From a virus: a stretch of 31,808 nucleotides of DNA. The notes under the pieces were generated by a model, which did no database searches, had not been told where the DNA came from, and saw only the letters and a program-made list of their open reading frames with translations. Positions 18,860 to 31,005 of the stretch are shown one piece after another. The position numbers and the translations under genes were made by a program. Location of the stretch: IMG/VR virus record IMGVR_UViG_3300031576_000229, positions 1 to 31,808 of that record; one strand, 5' to 3'. Each line of letters begins with the position of its first letter. The first letter of the stretch is position 1.

Positions 18860-18909
18860 CGGGATGTGACGCGCGGTCTGCGGCTCTCCACGTCTCGGGC
18901 TGCTTGCGC

Positions 18910-18973
18910 GCGCGGGAGCCAGCCGCCGCCGCTTTGTCACGCGGACCGCACTACTGGCGGCTGGCTCCCGCGC
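18910..18973. repeat. Perfect 18-bp inverted repeat
   Basis: Arms 18910-18927 and 18956-18973 are exact complements (GCGCGGGAGCCAGCCGCC and its reverse) around a 28-base loop. The surrounding 18703-19076 has no convincing gene. There is no T run after it on either strand, so it is not a simple terminator. It could be an RNA structure or a protein-binding site, such as one for packaging. Confidence 0.75.
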
Positions 18974-19076
18974 TGCCCAGTTCTCCACGGCATCCCACCG
19001 CACGCGGTCTCGGTCTCGGTCTCCAGATGAGAGAGTTGCGCCATTCACGGCCCGAGGTGTAGGATGCAATCAACTG

Positions 19077-19227
19077 GCAGTGGTAAATACCCTAATGGCT
19101 GAGGACACTGCTGAACCGGGAGGGCGAAAGCACTCCCACAAATCGATAGCCCGTAAAGGGCGAACGAGCGCTCGCGATAGAGTCACATCACGCGAGCGGC
19201 ACGGCCCGGATCAACGTCCGGGCTTTT
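19077..19227 (+). ncRNA. Candidate structured small RNA with terminator
   Basis: Read on the plus strand this stretch has five hairpins in a row: GCAGTG (19077-19082) with CACTGC (19106-19111); GGGAG...CTCCC around 19117-19138 with a GAAA tetraloop on a GC step; a GCCC/GGGC hairpin near 19150-19162; CGCTCGCG with CGCGAGCG around 19170-19200; and a terminator, GCCCGGA (19204-19210) with TCCGGGC (19217-19223) followed by TTTT. The order fits a discrete RNA of about 150 bases. Its end lies antisense to the last codons of the gene 19211-19615. A promoter is not clear (a weak TTGCGC to TAGGAT around 19035-19065). No family recognised. Confidence 0.5.
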
Positions 19228-19615
19228 GCTTTTGCTGCTGCTGCTGCAATTCCTGGGACGGAGTAAGAAGATTCGTCGGTGCAGCCGCCGCCGCCGCCGC
19301 TTCCTCACTCACAGGCTCGGCAATCTCCCCATACCGCATCGCACTCAGCAGCCGAGCCTTTTCCCGCTCACACTCACTAAGCTCCCGTATGATCGCCGCT
19401 TTGAGCTCCTTGTATTTCGCATCCAGACGGCGGCGCTCTTCTTCAAGCCAGCCCACACGCTCATCGAGAAACACATAGTCCAGGGAGAAGTTCAGCCGTT
19501 CGGTGTCCGAGATTGCGCGGAAGATCTTCCGCGCCGCACGCTCCACCTGATCCACGCGCTTCTCGATGTCCACGTTTCGTTGCAGGCCGGCCTGCAGTTT
19601 GAGCAAATCCGCCAT
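19211..19615 (-). CDS. Coiled-coil protein with polyalanine and polyglutamine tail
   Basis: A 134-residue, strongly helical and charged protein (VDQVERAARKIFRAI, LEEERRRLDAKYKELKAAII, CEREKARLL) likely to form a coiled coil. The tail has a run of eight alanines (from a GCC repeat at 19283-19300) and then five glutamines (from the GCT repeat at 19234-19248 read in another frame). The ATG at 19615 has GGAGG upstream. It is the most upstream minus-strand gene and is separated from the late operon by 500 bases. Scaffold or regulatory roles are possible; nothing decides. Confidence 0.55.
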   Translation of the reverse strand: MADLLKLQAGLQRNVDIEKRVDQVERAARKIFRAISDTERLNFSLDYVFLDERVGWLEEERRRLDAKYKELKAAIIRELSECEREKARLLSAMRYGEIAEPVSEEAAAAAAAPTNLLTPSQELQQQQQKQKPGR

Positions 19616-19652
19616 ACGAAATGACCCCCCCTCCTCGCGCATGTTACACGAC

Positions 19653-19680
19653 TTGCAATCCGTTTCGTTCGTGGTATAGT
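19653..19680 (+). promoter_or_regulatory. Sigma70-type promoter
   Basis: TTGCAA (19653-19658), 16 bases, then TATAGT (19675-19680), reading right. It is followed within 80 bases by a terminator, so it should make a short RNA. Confidence 0.6.
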
Positions 19681-19686
19681 ACGTCC

Positions 19687-19766
19687 ACCATTTGGCGCTT
19701 TACTTCCGTGGAGCGCCGCGATTCGATCAAGGGCCGCCATCTCCGTGTGCGGCCCTTTCGCTTTTC
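19687..19766 (+). ncRNA. Candidate 80-base small RNA
   Basis: This lies between the promoter at 19653-19680 and an intrinsic terminator. It has a first hairpin GGCGCT with AGCGCC (about 19694-19719) and a terminator stem of nine pairs, AAGGGCCGC (19729-19737) with GCGGCCCTT (19749-19757), followed by a T-rich tail. There is no open reading frame with a ribosome binding site. Start and end are predicted from these signals only. No family recognised. Confidence 0.6.
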
Positions 19767-20023
19767 AGCCACTCCCCTTCGAACTCCTGCTGCTGCTGCT
19801 GCTGCCAACTCCAGATTGATTCCCGCTCTTGCCGCCGGTCGAGATCGGGGGAGACTCGCGTGGATGCGGCCAAAGCGCCGCGGCTTTTCTCACAGTTGGC
19901 AGGAGCACACGTATTGGATGGATGGGCCGGGCCACGCCTGACGCCGAGGCCCTGAGCATCCCCCTTCGCACGGTCCTCGCTTACAGCGCCTCGCTATCGC
20001 GCTGTCCGGAGATTGAAGGCTGT

Positions 20024-20087
20024 CCGCCCGCCACCGCCGCGCCCCGAAAGAGAGTTCAAAGTTTCGGGGCGCGGCGGCGGCGGGCGG
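20024..20087. repeat. 26-bp inverted repeat (large hairpin)
   Basis: Arms 20024-20049 and 20062-20087 pair at 25 of 26 positions around a 12-base loop (GAGAGTTCAAAG). The stem is almost all G and C apart from three A-T pairs at the loop end. The stability and the short loop suggest an RNA hairpin or a cruciform-forming DNA site. Confidence 0.85.
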
Positions 20088-20192
20088 AGGGAAAGGGCGC
20101 TGGCACGGCCGTCCCGGCGTACGTTTCTGCCGCCCGCTCCGGGGCTGATCGGATGCTGCGCGGCTTCCATTTAGACAACGCCCTACCGGGCT

Positions 20193-20325
20193 AAAAATGT
20201 GGAACGCGCCCAGAGCAGAAGAGAGGGCCGCGCCACTGCCGCCTTCCACCTGGACGTGCGGGAAGTTGCAAGCGGCGGCAGCGGCGCGGCCCTCGACGTG
20301 CAGGAAGAGCGCGTCCCACATTTTT
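20193..20325. repeat. Nested 133-bp dyad (giant hairpin)
   Basis: Three nested stems: 20193-20209 with 20309-20325 (16 of 17 pairs, ending in an A run and a T run), 20223-20243 with 20274-20294 (20 of 21 pairs, starting GAGGGCCGCGCC), and 20243-20247 with 20261-20265 in the inner loop. The A/T-run ends could let it terminate transcription from either side. No gene overlaps it with support. Confidence 0.85.
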
Positions 20326-20497
20326 CCTCTATTCGGAAGGCGAAGCGCCGTTAGATTCGGAAGCGGCCAAAGCGCCGCGGCTTCCATACAATTTTCCTTT
20401 GCGTCTGTGACGCGGACGTTGGCTTGTATCCCGCGAGCAGTCCACGGGATTCGGACGTTGGACCACTCACCAGGCAGGGGGTTCCCTTCGAACGTCA

Positions 20498-20794
20498 TGG
20501 TCTGTTCGTGTGTGTGGTTTGTGTGGCCGTGGCTGGCGTCGTGCGGGCTGGTGCTTTTGTTCGTGCGTTCCGGGTGGCCGCGCGCGTGCGTGGTTTTGCC
20601 GCGCCGGCGTCGCCGTTGGCGCGCCGGTCGCTCGCTCTCTTTGCTTCGCGTTGCCCTGGCTCGCGGTCGCGCGGGCTGCGGGTTTCCCGGTGGCGGCCGC
20701 GCCCGCCGGTCTCCGGCGTCGGGCGCTCGCGCGTGTTTCGTCGGTGGGTCATTGTTTCGTTCTTTTTTCTTTCTTTTTTTGCTTCTGGTTGTTG
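20498..20794 (+). other. Adenine-depleted tract 1
   Basis: The plus strand has a single A (20751) in 297 bases; 20498-20750 has none. The tract is rich in G, C and T, starts with a GTGTGTGG stretch and ends in a T/C-rich stretch just before a promoter. Frames stay open here only because stops on either strand need A or T partners that are missing; no ribosome binding site or conserved domain supports a protein. Confidence 0.9.
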
Positions 20795-20820
20795 ACACAC
20801 GTGTGCACAGGTGTTAATAT
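20792..20820 (+). promoter_or_regulatory. Consensus sigma70 promoter with internal palindrome
   Basis: TTGACA (20792-20797), exactly 17 bases, TAATAT (20815-20820). A perfect ten-base palindrome CACACGTGTG (20796-20805) begins in the -35 and fills part of the spacer, as an operator would. It reads into the second adenine-depleted tract, so that tract is probably transcribed. Confidence 0.75.
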
Positions 20821-21438
20821 GTGTGTGTTGGTGGCGGTGGTTGCTGGTGGTTGGTGCGGTCGGTTCCGCGCGCGGCTGCTGGCCTTTTCCTGGGGGTGCT
20901 TCATGTCCGCTTCTTCTTTCGTTCGTCTCTTTGGTTGTGCGCCGGCTGGTCTCTGGCTGGCCTTCCTTTTCCTGCGCCCTGCGCGTGGCTGCTCGGTTTG
21001 CGGCGGCTTCGGCTGGGCTTCCTGCTCGTCGCTGGCTCGCGTTCGCGGGCTGGCCTGATCGTTTCGTTTCCCGCCGGCGTGGCTCGGTCGCGCCGGCGCT
21101 TTCCTTTTGGGGGTGGCCGTGGCTTCTTCTTCTCGCTCTTCTTCCGCTTCTCTTCCGCGCTGCGCTTCGTGCGCTGGCGCTGGGCTGCTGCCTGGCGCGG
21201 TCGTTTGCCCGGCGTGCGGCGGGCGGGGCCGGGTTGCTGCTGCCTCGCCGGCGGGTTCGTCCGCGCCTGCCTCGGTTTGCGCCGGCGCGTGCTGGTCGTC
21301 GGGCGCGGGGCTGCCTTGCGCCGCGTGCGTGGCTTCGCGCCGGGCTGCCTTGCGGGCGTCGGTTCGTCCGGCCTCGCGGTGGGCGGGCGGGCCCTGGCTG
21401 CCCCGCGCTTCTTCCGCGCCGGCGGGTTCGCTTTTCGG
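20820..21438 (+). other. Adenine-depleted tract 2
   Basis: Only two A (20903 and 21058) occur in 619 plus-strand bases; 21059-21438 is 380 bases with none. From 21439 to 21799 A stays scarce but returns. It begins directly after a consensus promoter, so an RNA with nearly no A is expected. It contains G runs (GGCGGGCGGGGCCGGG near 21219) and pyrimidine runs (CTTCTTCTTCTCGCTCTTC near 21124). Overlapping open frames exist in several registers on both strands; they are a by-product of base composition. Confidence 0.92.
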
Positions 21439-21799
21439 ATGATCGGGTCGGCGGCTGGATGGTTCAGAACTCGCCTCGCCGCTGTCGTTTTTTGGGGGTT
21501 TCGCGTGCGCTTTCTTTCGCTTCTTTTCTTTTTGGCCTGGCTGCTCGCGGCTTGGTGGGCTGTCGCCGCGCCGCGGCTGGAATTCAGGCGATCAGGTCGG
21601 GTCTCGCTCGCCTGGCTGCGGCCGGATCGGCGGGGCGTGGGCGCACACCTCGTGCGGCTGCCGCTTCCGATCTGGTGCTCGCGCTGGCTGTGGCTGTGCC
21701 GCGCTTGCGGCACGGGGCACACTGCGCGCAGGCTCCGCCGTGTTTCGTCGGTGGGTCATTGTTTCGTTCTTTTTTTTTCTTTCTGTTGCTTTTTTGTGC

Positions 21800-21828
21800 T
21801 TGACGACACGTATTCACATATGTAATAA
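21800..21828 (+). promoter_or_regulatory. Sigma70 promoter for early operon
   Basis: TTGACG (21800-21805), 17 bases, TAATAA (21823-21828), with a palindrome ACATATGT (21816-21823) touching the -10. It lies 68 bases upstream of the ATG at 21896 and is the likely start of the rightward early operon. Confidence 0.7.
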
Positions 21829-21895
21829 TGTGCCATCAGATCGAGACAAACGGTACACGCGCGCGGCCACATTCGCGCGCAACACGGAGGAAATC

Positions 21896-22339
21896 ATGAT
21901 CAGGATTCAGAGCAGATATTTCGTGAAGGCTTTTCGGAAGGCGCGCGAGGTGCAGCCCACGGTGCGGCGCGCGAGTGAGCAGGAATACGATGTGCGCAGG
22001 TCGGACGGCCGGTTCACCCGCGTAGTGCTTATGTTGCACGCAGGCGGCTTGTGGGCTGCCTGCGGTTGCTATGCCGGCTCGCCGCAGGGGCGGAATGCCC
22101 CGCTCCCTTGCTATCACGTGGCGGCGGCTCTGCTCAGCGATGAGCCGGTGATTGCAGGGGCTTCGGCTCCCGCTGCTGCTGCCTCACCCGTGCGGATCCA
22201 CTCTCACTTTTGCCCCGGCCATCATGGGCTCTGGCAATGCGGCTTCCAGGGCTGCGAGGCGCTGGACGATCTGCACTGCGATTCGTGCGAGCAGCGCGAG
22301 ATCGAAAAGCTGGACTGGTCGCTGGCAATGGCAAATTAA
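21896..22339 (+). CDS. SWIM zinc-finger protein
   Basis: A 147-residue protein. It has a SWIM finger CxC...CxH at C56, C58, C72, H74 (CGCYAG...PLPCYH). The C-terminal third adds a second cysteine and histidine cluster (HSHFCPGHHGLWQCGFQGC, LHCDSC), likely a further zinc site. A run of alanines (APAAAAS) is encoded by a short GCT repeat. SWIM domains bind DNA or proteins, as in recombination or transposition regulators. The ATG follows CGGAGGAAA; the promoter at 21800-21828 precedes it. Likely an early regulator; its target is unknown. Confidence 0.75.
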   Translation: MIRIQSRYFVKAFRKAREVQPTVRRASEQEYDVRRSDGRFTRVVLMLHAGGLWAACGCYAGSPQGRNAPLPCYHVAAALLSDEPVIAGASAPAAAASPVRIHSHFCPGHHGLWQCGFQGCEALDDLHCDSCEQREIEKLDWSLAMAN

Positions 22340-22448
22340 ATAGTTAAGGTTTGTGACCAGCTCGCACGGGTAGCGCCTTGCGAGTCGAAAACCGGCTGGG
22401 CACAGCAGTACGCGCCAGGTCACCGCGTCCCGGGGGCAAGCTGCAAGC

Positions 22449-22479
22449 CCCGCGCCTGGACTACGCTACCAGGCGCGGG
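22449..22479. repeat. GC-rich 11-bp hairpin
   Basis: CCCGCGCCTGG (22449-22459) pairs exactly with CCAGGCGCGGG (22469-22479) around nine bases, just ahead of the gene at 22493. The rest of 22340-22448 also shows a closing stem GTGACC/GGTCAC (near 22353 and 22419) around a smaller CTCGCA/TGCGAG hairpin, so this gap may be a structured leader. Confidence 0.55.
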
Positions 22480-22492
22480 CATTGAGGCACAC

Positions 22493-22810
22493 ATGAAACT
22501 GAGGCACGCAACAACCAAAAAGGCAGCAGCAGCAATCGCGCGGCAGGGATTCCGCCTGGATAAGGCCGATCCCGAGGCGAAGATCAAGGGCGTGTGGCTG
22601 CACACGCCCTCGGCCTCGCCCTGGGCGGTGCTGCACACGATCCGCAAGCACGGGGCGCGCCTCGCGGATGTGGTCGTGATCGAGGTCGAAATCCCACGAT
22701 CACAGCTTCGCCGCTTCCGGCGCGGGCTCTGGTACGCACAAGTAAATATTCCCGCGAGCGCGATTCGCGGGGAAATGGCCGGCGCTGAGTTCAGCGGCGG
22801 CGCGCAGTGA
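22493..22810 (+). CDS. Putative ADP-ribosyltransferase-like small protein
   Basis: A 105-residue protein. MKLRHATTKKAAAAIARQGF has the layout of the LYHGT(S)...A..I...GF opening of small ART-like proteins, with RHAT in place of YHGT. It continues with GVWLHTPS, VVVIEVEIPRSQLRRF and YAQVNIPASAIRG, in the order seen in such folds. Four consecutive alanines come from a GCA repeat (22523-22534). Weak ribosome binding site (GAGG). Homologues of this kind are often of unknown function; enzymatic activity is not supported beyond the pattern. Confidence 0.5.
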   Translation: MKLRHATTKKAAAAIARQGFRLDKADPEAKIKGVWLHTPSASPWAVLHTIRKHGARLADVVVIEVEIPRSQLRRFRRGLWYAQVNIPASAIRGEMAGAEFSGGAQ

Positions 22811-29199: not shown

Positions 29200-29832
29200 G
29201 TGATATATCTGAGCGGCAGGCTACAAGCAGCGAAGACTGGGCTTCGGCCCGACATCGGGATCATGCTTGGATATCGCGGCGCCGTGGGCCGCAACTCACA
29301 CGGCAGAGGCGGACTAGCCAAGGTGATGTGGGCAGCCGACAACGGCTGCTTCACAAGCCCCGACCTCAACGTCGGCGCTTATCTCAAGTGGCTGGGATCA
29401 CTAAGCCAGTTTCGGGAAACCTGCCTATTTGCGGTAGCGCCCGATGTCGTCGCCGATGCGCGCGCCACTTGGGAGCGCAGCCGCGAGGTTCTACCGCGCA
29501 TCCGCGCAATTGGTTTTGCCGCCGCCTTCGTCGCGCAGGACGGGATCGAGGATGAGCAGATCAACTGGGATTCCTTCGACTGCCTGTTTATCGGCGGCTC
29601 CACGGAATGGAAACTGTCGACAAACACCCATTGGCTTTGCCGCGAGGCAATTGCACAAGGCAAATGGGTCCACATGGGCCGAGTGAATTCTTTTCGAAGA
29701 TTGTTGCAGGCCCGGTTCGCCGGCTGCCACTCCTGCGACGGGACACAGTTGGCCTTCGCGCCAGACAAGAGGCTGGCGCAACTGGAGAGATGGTTGGACT
29801 GGATGAAGATCCAACCGACATTGGACTTTTAG
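29200..29832 (+). CDS. TGT-like TIM-barrel enzyme
   Basis: A 210-residue protein with motifs of phage relatives of tRNA-guanine transglycosylase: AADNGCF (46-51), [10 protein letters not shown] (78-87), VAQDG (111-115), IGGSTEWK (131-138), [10 protein letters not shown] (155-164) and SCDGT (178-182). In DpdA-type relatives such barrels exchange guanine for a 7-deazaguanine in DNA; others have unknown use. The start is a GTG behind GGAG. Next to a methyltransferase, so nucleic-acid modification is plausible. Substrate not known. Confidence 0.6.
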
Positions 29833-29836
29833 CGTA

Positions 29837-30226
29837 ATGAAATTGCTGGATCTATTTTGCGGGGCTGGTGGCGCGGCGATGGGTTATTACCACGCAGGTT
29901 TCGAAGTCGTCGGCGTGGACATCGAGCCGCAGCCACGCTACCTATTCGAGTTCCACCAGGCAGACGCCCTCGAATTCGTGGCGTGCAACGGCGCGGAGTT
30001 CGACGCAATTCACGCGTCGCCGCCGTGCCAGGCATATAGTCGGATGAAGTCCATGACGAAAAGGAAATACCCGAAGCTGATAGAAGAAACGCGCTACGCA
30101 AATTCACGGGCGAGAGCAGGACGAAACCCCACCCTCGCCCCACGATCAACCACGACACGGTTGACCGCGGCCATCGAAGAGATGGCGCGCGGATTCTCAC
30201 TCGAGAGAGTGAGTTTGACAATATGA
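29837..30226 (+). pseudogene. Truncated C5-cytosine methyltransferase
   Basis: The first 87 residues are a good cytosine-C5 methyltransferase start: motif [16 protein letters not shown] (SAM binding), VVGVDIEPQ (motif II), FHQADALEF, and motif [13 protein letters not shown] with the catalytic cysteine. After LIEETR the protein becomes unrelated and stops at 129 residues, with no motif VI, VIII or target domain, so it is cut or frame-shifted near 30090. Another frame stays open to about 30285 but does not restore the family. It may be inactive. Confidence 0.7.
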
Positions 30227-30291: not shown

Positions 30292-31005
30292 ATGGAACAA
30301 ATATCGGTTACAAGCCCTTTTAAGCACATCAAGGCCAGAAAGATAATTATCCTCTGGGGAGCCGTGATTTTGGTCTGCATAACGGCGCTCAGCTGCGTCT
30401 CGTCATTCATGATCTACCGAGGCGGATTCGCCGACCTCGGTATTTTCCAGCCGCTGCTATCGCTGTTTGCCGTCGTCGTCGTGGAAGGCGCGTTCGTGTG
30501 GCTGGTCTACGGGTTCACGCGGGCGTTTTCATCAACCACTGAGCGGGGGATCGCCCTGCTCGGAATGAGCTTCCTGGTCGTCGTAATGTTGATCAATCTG
30601 GTAACGCATTTCATGATGGTGAAGAACATCCCACTCAATTCCTTTCAGCAGTCGTGGATCTCCTGGGGCGCGATTACGGTCTTCATCGTCGTTCTGCTGA
30701 TCGTCCTCTGCATCACCTTGGCCGATCCCGTGATCCGCCTTGTCCGGCTCGAACTCCGTTACCTCGGCCTACAACAGGAGAAGATTCTCGAAGCCAAGAC
30801 CGAAAGCCTGGATAGCGACCAGATTCAGGAAGCGATGGCAGGACGCGCCGAATGGGAGGCGGGTCAATTGGCCGATCGGATACTGGGTGAGGCACAACGG
30901 CCCAGAGAGCACCGGCGCCAGATTGCCAGTCGCTGGCAGGACCGCGAGGATCCATTCGCCAGCCTGCCCGTTGAAGAGCCACCGGGAAAAGACCCGCGCC
31001 GCTGA
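30292..31005 (+). CDS. Four-helix membrane protein
   Basis: A 237-residue protein with four predicted membrane helices, about 18-42, 50-77, 86-108 and 122-146, followed by a cytoplasmic charged tail with a coiled-coil part (LEAKTESLDSDQIQEAM) and a proline-rich end. No enzyme motif is seen. A phage membrane protein here might act in exclusion or replication anchoring, but nothing decides. No clear ribosome binding site. Confidence 0.65.
   Translation: MEQISVTSPFKHIKARKIIILWGAVILVCITALSCVSSFMIYRGGFADLGIFQPLLSLFAVVVVEGAFVWLVYGFTRAFSSTTERGIALLGMSFLVVVMLINLVTHFMMVKNIPLNSFQQSWISWGAITVFIVVLLIVLCITLADPVIRLVRLELRYLGLQQEKILEAKTESLDSDQIQEAMAGRAEWEAGQLADRILGEAQRPREHRRQIASRWQDREDPFASLPVEEPPGKDPRR

Follow-up and report, generated by a model that had tools for sequence, protein, structure and literature searches.

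A predicted early operon of a temperate phage written almost without adenine, possibly in escape from adenosine-cutting ribonucleases

When genes are engineered to lack ACA for single-protein production with MazF, the mRNA without the nuclease target survives (PMC4775720, PMC9102682). Type III CRISPR defence is known to use HEPN RNases with a specificity for adenosine: Csx1 from Pyrococcus is one of them, and many enzymes of the Csx1/Csm6 group cleave after an adenosine or a purine (PMC7192623). Phages can also keep translation going under attack by supplying resistant tRNAs (PMC10264068, PMC11555353).

The locus described here, a putative early operon of a phage, resembles each of these systems in part. 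As with MazF and ACA-less genes, a message stripped of its targets would survive while others are cut; however, those genes are engineered and lack only ACA, whereas the phage operon is natural and its core keeps A in start and stop codons alone. Csx1/Csm6, an antiviral activity that cuts at adenosine (PMC7192623), would leave an A-free message intact, but the link of these enzymes to the phages is one that we infer: no such enzyme or other A-specific nuclease was identified with the phages or a host, and the search for Csm6 HEPN domains, in 99 genomes, had a silent control. Translation would continue under attack as it does in tRNA-based evasion, but there resistant tRNAs are supplied, whereas the A-free operon would possibly do without the attacked tRNAs. 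Genes of the histone H1 and AlgP type have long T-free runs on their coding strand, which are A-free on the other; these genes, however, are repetitive and lose the base through amino-acid repeats, whereas the phage tract has no repeats, codes on the other strand and extends the loss to its leader. Diversity-generating retroelements share with the locus an adenine-specific change of DNA, but here there are coding genes, about 1 kb is affected, and neither a reverse transcriptase nor a template repeat is found. In layout, the operon is like the accessory early-region cassettes of temperate phages, with an early-type promoter and small genes placed where the late and early modules diverge; its small orphan membrane and zinc-ribbon proteins and its absence from one relative are further likenesses. 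Exclusion of a nucleotide is not known from such cassettes, nor did literature searches bring up a case.

The window (the whole stretch of DNA analysed, a viral contig of 31,808 bp from an IMG/VR record, here G000) contains recognized genes for capsid, portal, terminase, a RecT-like protein and integrase, and is, on its sequence, a temperate tailed phage. Its late genes occupy the minus strand up to about 18.7 kb, its early genes occupy the plus strand from 21.9 kb onward, and the A-poor tracts sit between these modules. The features of this region are as follows.

20497..20817, plus strand: tract 1, A-free from its ATG and open in all three plus-strand frames
20725..20784, plus strand: 60-bp direct repeat D1, copy 1, just upstream of P1
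20792..20820, plus strand: predicted promoter P1, TTGACA-17-TAATAT (10/12), with the palindrome CACACGTGTG in the spacer region
20827..20902, plus strand: leader of 76 nt with 0 A, predicted for the 5' end of the transcript from P1, its start placed from the position of the -10 box
20903..21058, plus strand: ORF2a, 51 aa, hydrophobic; its ATG and TGA hold its only two A
21119..21442, plus strand: ORF2b, 107 aa, with a GTG start and a TGA stop at 21440-21442
21439..21825, plus strand: ORF2c, 128 aa, 7.5% A; its ATG overlaps the ORF2b stop (ATGA)
21732..21791, plus strand: copy 2 of the 60-bp repeat, upstream of P2 and 87% identical to copy 1
21800..21829, plus strand: predicted promoter P2, which would serve the next early operon, with -35/-10 architecture and half-sites like those of P1
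21896..22339, plus strand: early gene of normal composition for a SWIM-like protein (CxC...CYHV, 147 aa), which bounds the A-poor cassette

A direct count gives one A per 297 bases at 20498-20794 and two A per 619 bases at 20820-21438. When the two are pooled (916 bases, GC 0.70), three A stand against 274 T, where about 138 A would be expected at the same GC and with strand symmetry (log10 P = -59, or -77 for A versus T alone). The longest A-free run has 380 bases (21059-21438) and the second 253 bases (20498-20750). Because T is raised to about 30%, A alone being missing, and the bias is strand-specific, it is not simply one of high GC. This recount agrees exactly with the A numbers and the 380-base run given in the earlier note, but the tract does not end at 21438, as that note had it: low A reaches about 21800, the stretch 21439-21825 being still A-poor. 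In the core formed by ORF2a and ORF2b, the only A positions are 20903 (ATG), 21058 (TGA), and 21439 and 21442 (ATGA). A reappears at both promoters, over 20795-20819 and 21803-21850, and makes up 16% of the next gene; the exclusion is limited to stretches for which transcription is predicted.

The same property was seen in a relative, G001 (IMGVR_UViG_3300019360_000024; 35,051 bp), from the same metagenome, whose capsid is 76% identical to that of the window phage. The G001 contig appears circularly permuted because its terminase gene spans the contig ends. Its A-poor tracts lie beside TerS, on the strand that matches the window plus strand, and comprise the following.

31988-31767: ORF A, 73 codons, A-poor, preceded by GGGGGTG-TCTC-ATG, with a 196-base A-free run closed by TGA
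30103-29849: ORF Ba, 84 codons, with three A, in the start codon, one Asp codon and the stop codon
29838-29524: ORF Bb, 104 codons, membrane/Arg-rich, 6% A

The last two, by the next early operon of G001, follow an A-free leader of 57 nt. Since blastn found no similarity between the islands of the two phages, composition is conserved here without conservation of the DNA sequence, which the earlier note had proposed to check among relatives. A third relative, L107/L191, has a terminase 62% identical and conserves the SWIM-like gene, and in L107 the next gene and operon and a promoter-like sequence are present while the A-free cassette is absent; the cassette is therefore accessory, and has been seen in two phages of one metagenome, as contig sequence. 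The SWIM-like protein is conserved in G001 and L107, and its CxC...CxH residues are kept; the L107 homologue scores 12.9 bits against the SWIM zinc finger PF04434, below the cut-off of 19.6. Relatives of this protein were found in one genome (G306, of the phylum of a Blastocatellia MAG), in which there is neither an A-free tract nor a related terminase. In this large bacterial genome, the SWIM-like genes occupy two chromosomal loci (L287:8304-10392 and L288:6897-9498), each followed after about 1.3-1.8 kb by a gene for a membrane protein; judged by eye only, this is similar to the protein of window positions 30292-31005.

Among 269 loci (3.6 Mb, GC-rich actinobacteria included), runs of more than 126 bases free of any one base occur only in this phage and G001. 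In 60 bacterial genomes, A-free runs of at least 142 bases were found in 10; the listed runs, not all of which were inspected, are mostly low-complexity or repeat-like, with at least one GC-rich exception, and several are the antisense of Lys/Ala/Pro-rich genes. A low-A region in G003 is a GGGGTC tandem repeat. When viral contigs were scanned for TGGGGGTGYTTCATG with 30 non-A bases after it, two matched, G001 and the GC-rich contig L086, and the latter has no A-poor, ATG-started ORF of 30 codons at the match. The window has no DNA similarity to phages and plasmids, the island has no significant similarity to 13 relatives, and the 28-bp core of the D1 repeat has no exact match in the viral contigs. 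Protein searches in phages found nothing for ORF2b and the SWIM-like protein, and in profile scans of viral contigs ORF2c led only to G001 and ORF2b to nothing. We could not find natural A-free genes in a literature search either, which is weak evidence, subscription papers being missing from it; base exclusion of this kind seems not to have been described.

Every stop codon needs A (or T, on the other strand), so all frames are open in the tracts, and an open reading frame by itself proves nothing here. However, both A of tract 2 fall in a single frame, at the ATG of 20903 and the TGA of 21058. A Shine-Dalgarno sequence GGGGGTG (20892-20898) stands four bases ahead of this ATG, and a second (21109-21115) three bases ahead of the GTG at 21119. 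On the coding strand, GGGGGTG precedes a start codon at two sites in the window and at two in G001, all of them at these ORFs, and each genome has a single further match on its opposite strand, apparently by chance; GGAGG-ATG, by comparison, occurs 24 times in the window genome, counting both strands. GGGGGTG reads as GGAGGTG with its A changed to G, and would, by way of a G-U pair, still be able to bind the anti-Shine-Dalgarno sequence. ORF2b is related to Ba (z 4.9) and ORF2c to Bb (z 11.8); in both comparisons plus-strand frame 0 is the best among same-strand frame pairs, and mismatches are highest at codon position 3 (28/32/45 for ORF2b/Ba, 25/26/41 for ORF2c/Bb). For ORF2a, no supported homologue was found. 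From the positions of the ATG and TGA, the GGGGGTG sites, the ATGA overlap, the plus-strand promoters and the frame-specific homology, we consider it very probable that tract 2 is plus-strand coding DNA made up of small genes. The island had been called gene-free in the earlier note, which does not hold for tract 2, lying between two promoters. Tract 1 is probably coding as well, but its frame is ambiguous: the ATG frame gives 106 aa and ends at the TAA of 20817, another frame ends at a TGA (20793-20795) at the end of the tract, and the weak resemblance to the upstream tract of G001 did not settle the ATG frame in the frame test.

The proteins of tract 2 are small, rich in Arg, Cys and Trp, and free of Lys and acids. 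ORF2b, which occupies most of the 380-base run, is rich in Arg, Ala, Cys and Ser and has a zinc-ribbon-like CxxC...CPxC pattern; its match to the DnaJ-type zinc ribbon PF00684 (18.1 bits, E 0.0034) is below the cut-off of 32.7, and its structure prediction, from a two-row alignment, is of low confidence (pLDDT 44). ORF2c has an N-terminal hydrophobic helix, according to a low-confidence model, and an Arg/Trp-rich part.

Transcription of tract 2 from a consensus promoter, as the earlier note had it, agrees with the match at 20792-20820. Between 20000 and 22000, two promoter-like sites were found against 0.0 expected, both on the plus strand and none on the minus strand. The architecture of P1 is similar to that of P2, and in G001, likewise, the promoter of the A-free operon resembles that of the next early operon; the window pair consists of the repeat and TTGAC-type promoters, and the G001 pair of TTGC-N-GGTACCAT. 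Such paired like promoters in both phages suggest a common regulation of the two operons.

A-free codons encode just F, L, S, C, W, P, R, V, A and G, and the proteins are therefore basic and hydrophobic, without Lys and acids. These are low-complexity proteins, and part of the A effect is amino-acid choice. At fourfold-degenerate sites, however, there is one A in 133 in ORF2a and ORF2b versus 10.8% in other window genes (p 1e-5), and none in 125 in ORF A and Ba versus 13.4% in other G001 genes (p 4e-8). Given the proteins and the codon usage of the genome, the log10 P of having no A is -9.9 for ORF2b, -5.9 for ORF A and -6.6 for Ba, and amino-acid choice would not suffice to explain the absence. 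The lack of A in leaders of 76 nt (window) and 57 nt (G001) has chance probabilities of 1e-8 and 4e-7, and the 60-nt gap between ORF2a and ORF2b is also A-free. With high confidence, then, we read A as excluded at the protein, synonymous-codon and untranslated levels alike. A nucleotide missing from leader, codons and ribosome site points to a pressure on the composition of the RNA itself. The earlier note had set its idea of A exclusion against a conserved protein in one frame with synonymous-site bias: ORF2b and ORF2c do have counterparts in G001 in the same frame, but A is scarce at the very synonymous sites and absent from the leaders, and nucleotide-level exclusion, the core of that idea, therefore survives.

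The explanation that we favour, though tentatively, is that a temperate phage carries this early operon as an accessory, with a message nearly free of adenine from which A would be excluded by selection acting on the early mRNA. Selection at the RNA level is what we infer because the exclusion is strand-specific, covers the leader and synonymous sites, and ends at the promoters; selection rather than mutation is rather probable as its cause. The operon would be expressed while an adenosine-cutting endoribonuclease is active, whether from host defence (an enzyme of the Csx1/Csm6 type or an A-preferring HEPN RNase) or as a shut-off RNase of the phage, and the message, offering almost no cut site, would survive. 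Granted the preceding steps, RNase escape may be the reason, with a likelihood somewhat short of even, and the explanation as a whole is held no more firmly than this. More doubtful is the claim that a natural cassette was selected to drop one nucleotide throughout its message, start and stop codons excepted, so that the phage could make its proteins while other RNA falls to an adenosine-specific RNase, as anti-defence by composition. An ACA-cutting MazF, suggested in the earlier note, would not by itself demand the loss of every A, whereas adenosine-specific HEPN RNases would. MazF-type enzymes require longer motifs. If escape from an A-specific RNase were true, it would mean anti-defence through composition and not through a protein, and would suggest that such RNases are widespread in these hosts. 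The transcript would not be wholly protected, since ORF2c and Bb, on the same predicted transcript, retain 6-7.5% A.

The cause could instead lie in the proteins, if products made of the ten residues listed above were needed and local codon preference or overlapping frames removed the remaining A. A-free codons give exactly these residues, homologues retain the residue classes, and six frames are open across much of the region; but fourfold sites lack A while T there is raised, the leaders, the 60-nt gap and the Shine-Dalgarno sequences are A-free as well, and extra frames need the absence of stop codons, not the total absence of A. We regard this as unlikely; were it so, the phages would still offer a set of natural proteins composed almost entirely of ten amino acids. 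A-free codons might also avoid the targets of anticodon nucleases (e.g., Lys, Glu, Tyr, Asn, Asp or His tRNAs), so that the operon could be translated during their destruction, tRNA-directed phage defence being established (PMC10264068, PMC11555353): codons for Lys, Tyr, Asn, Gln, Glu and Thr are absent from ORF2a, ORF2b, ORF A and Ba, and those for Asp, His and Ile are almost absent. Since this leaves the A-free leaders, gap and Shine-Dalgarno sequences unexplained, it is improbable. Decidedly improbable is a mutational origin, by which a strand-specific process such as reverse-transcriptase copying of the diversity-generating kind or adenine deamination stripped the A and selection kept those of start and stop codons, as the strand asymmetry, the sharp edges and the retention of A only where essential might suggest. 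Error-prone copying, offered in the earlier note, is unsupported: a reverse transcriptase is absent from both phage contigs (the window may be a fragment), and no template repeat with A at the variable-repeat differences was found within 18900-22500, where D1, the only long repeat, has no such pattern. Moreover, A has been lost across about 1 kb in two diverged phages, and the A of Lys and Glu codons would go too, except where the proteins could change freely.

A non-coding, A-free regulatory RNA, as pictured in the earlier note, would fit the promoter upstream and the lack of matches above cut-off to protein families, but is very improbable in view of the placement of start, stop and Shine-Dalgarno sequences and the frame-specific homology. 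The tracts fold no more stably than their shuffles (z -1.2, -0.3 and -0.2), which is nothing unusual for such a composition and means that A is not excluded for the sake of structure, and a search of the tracts in Rfam gave no match at gathering score. The minus strand, whose frames are open, might encode a Lys/Arg/Ala/Pro-rich protein like histone H1 or AlgP in a T-free gene, such genes being a frequent source of runs of this kind in bacterial genomes, where several A-free runs are their antisense. This is highly improbable: tandem repeats are absent (self-match about 0.42), a T-free strand cannot hold a start codon, no minus-strand promoter-like site was seen, and a plus-strand frame was best in the frame comparison. 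That the tract is an artefact of assembly has a practically negligible probability, for although the contig is metagenomic, the property recurs at the corresponding place in an independent contig whose sequence has diverged.

Large and near-perfect inverted repeats (20023-20088, 20223-20294 and 20193-20325) stand between the late genes and tract 1; their 27-nt arms are 96% complementary, and a nested pair has the arms AAAAATGTGGAACGCGC/GCGCGTCCCACATTTTT. A 62-bp element at 19069-19130 is 84% identical to G001 31149-31088, the rest of the island having diverged. Laid out as GCAGYG, GGTAAATACCC, AATGGCTGAGGAC and a CRCTGC-like end, with a compensatory pair change from GCAGUG/CACUGC to GCAGCG/CGCUGC, and followed in G001 by a terminator-like hairpin, it looks like a small structured RNA; Rfam gave no convincing match to it.

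Elsewhere in the window, the gene at 29837-30226 (129 aa) covers a DNA methyltransferase in its N-terminal part only, matching about 96/327 profile positions, and appears to be truncated or split. The protein of 210 aa at 29200-29832 belongs to a family of unknown function, phrog_15826 (E 1e-58); its GGSTEWK motif presumably recalls relatives of DpdA-type tRNA-guanine transglycosylases. Runs of (CTG)n/(CAG)n with four to six units, absent in ten other capsid relatives examined, are frequent in G001, L107 and L190, and number 11 across the window genome (positions 2378, 6418, 13288, 16518, 19233, 19787, 22523, 26145, 28013, 31069 and 31083).
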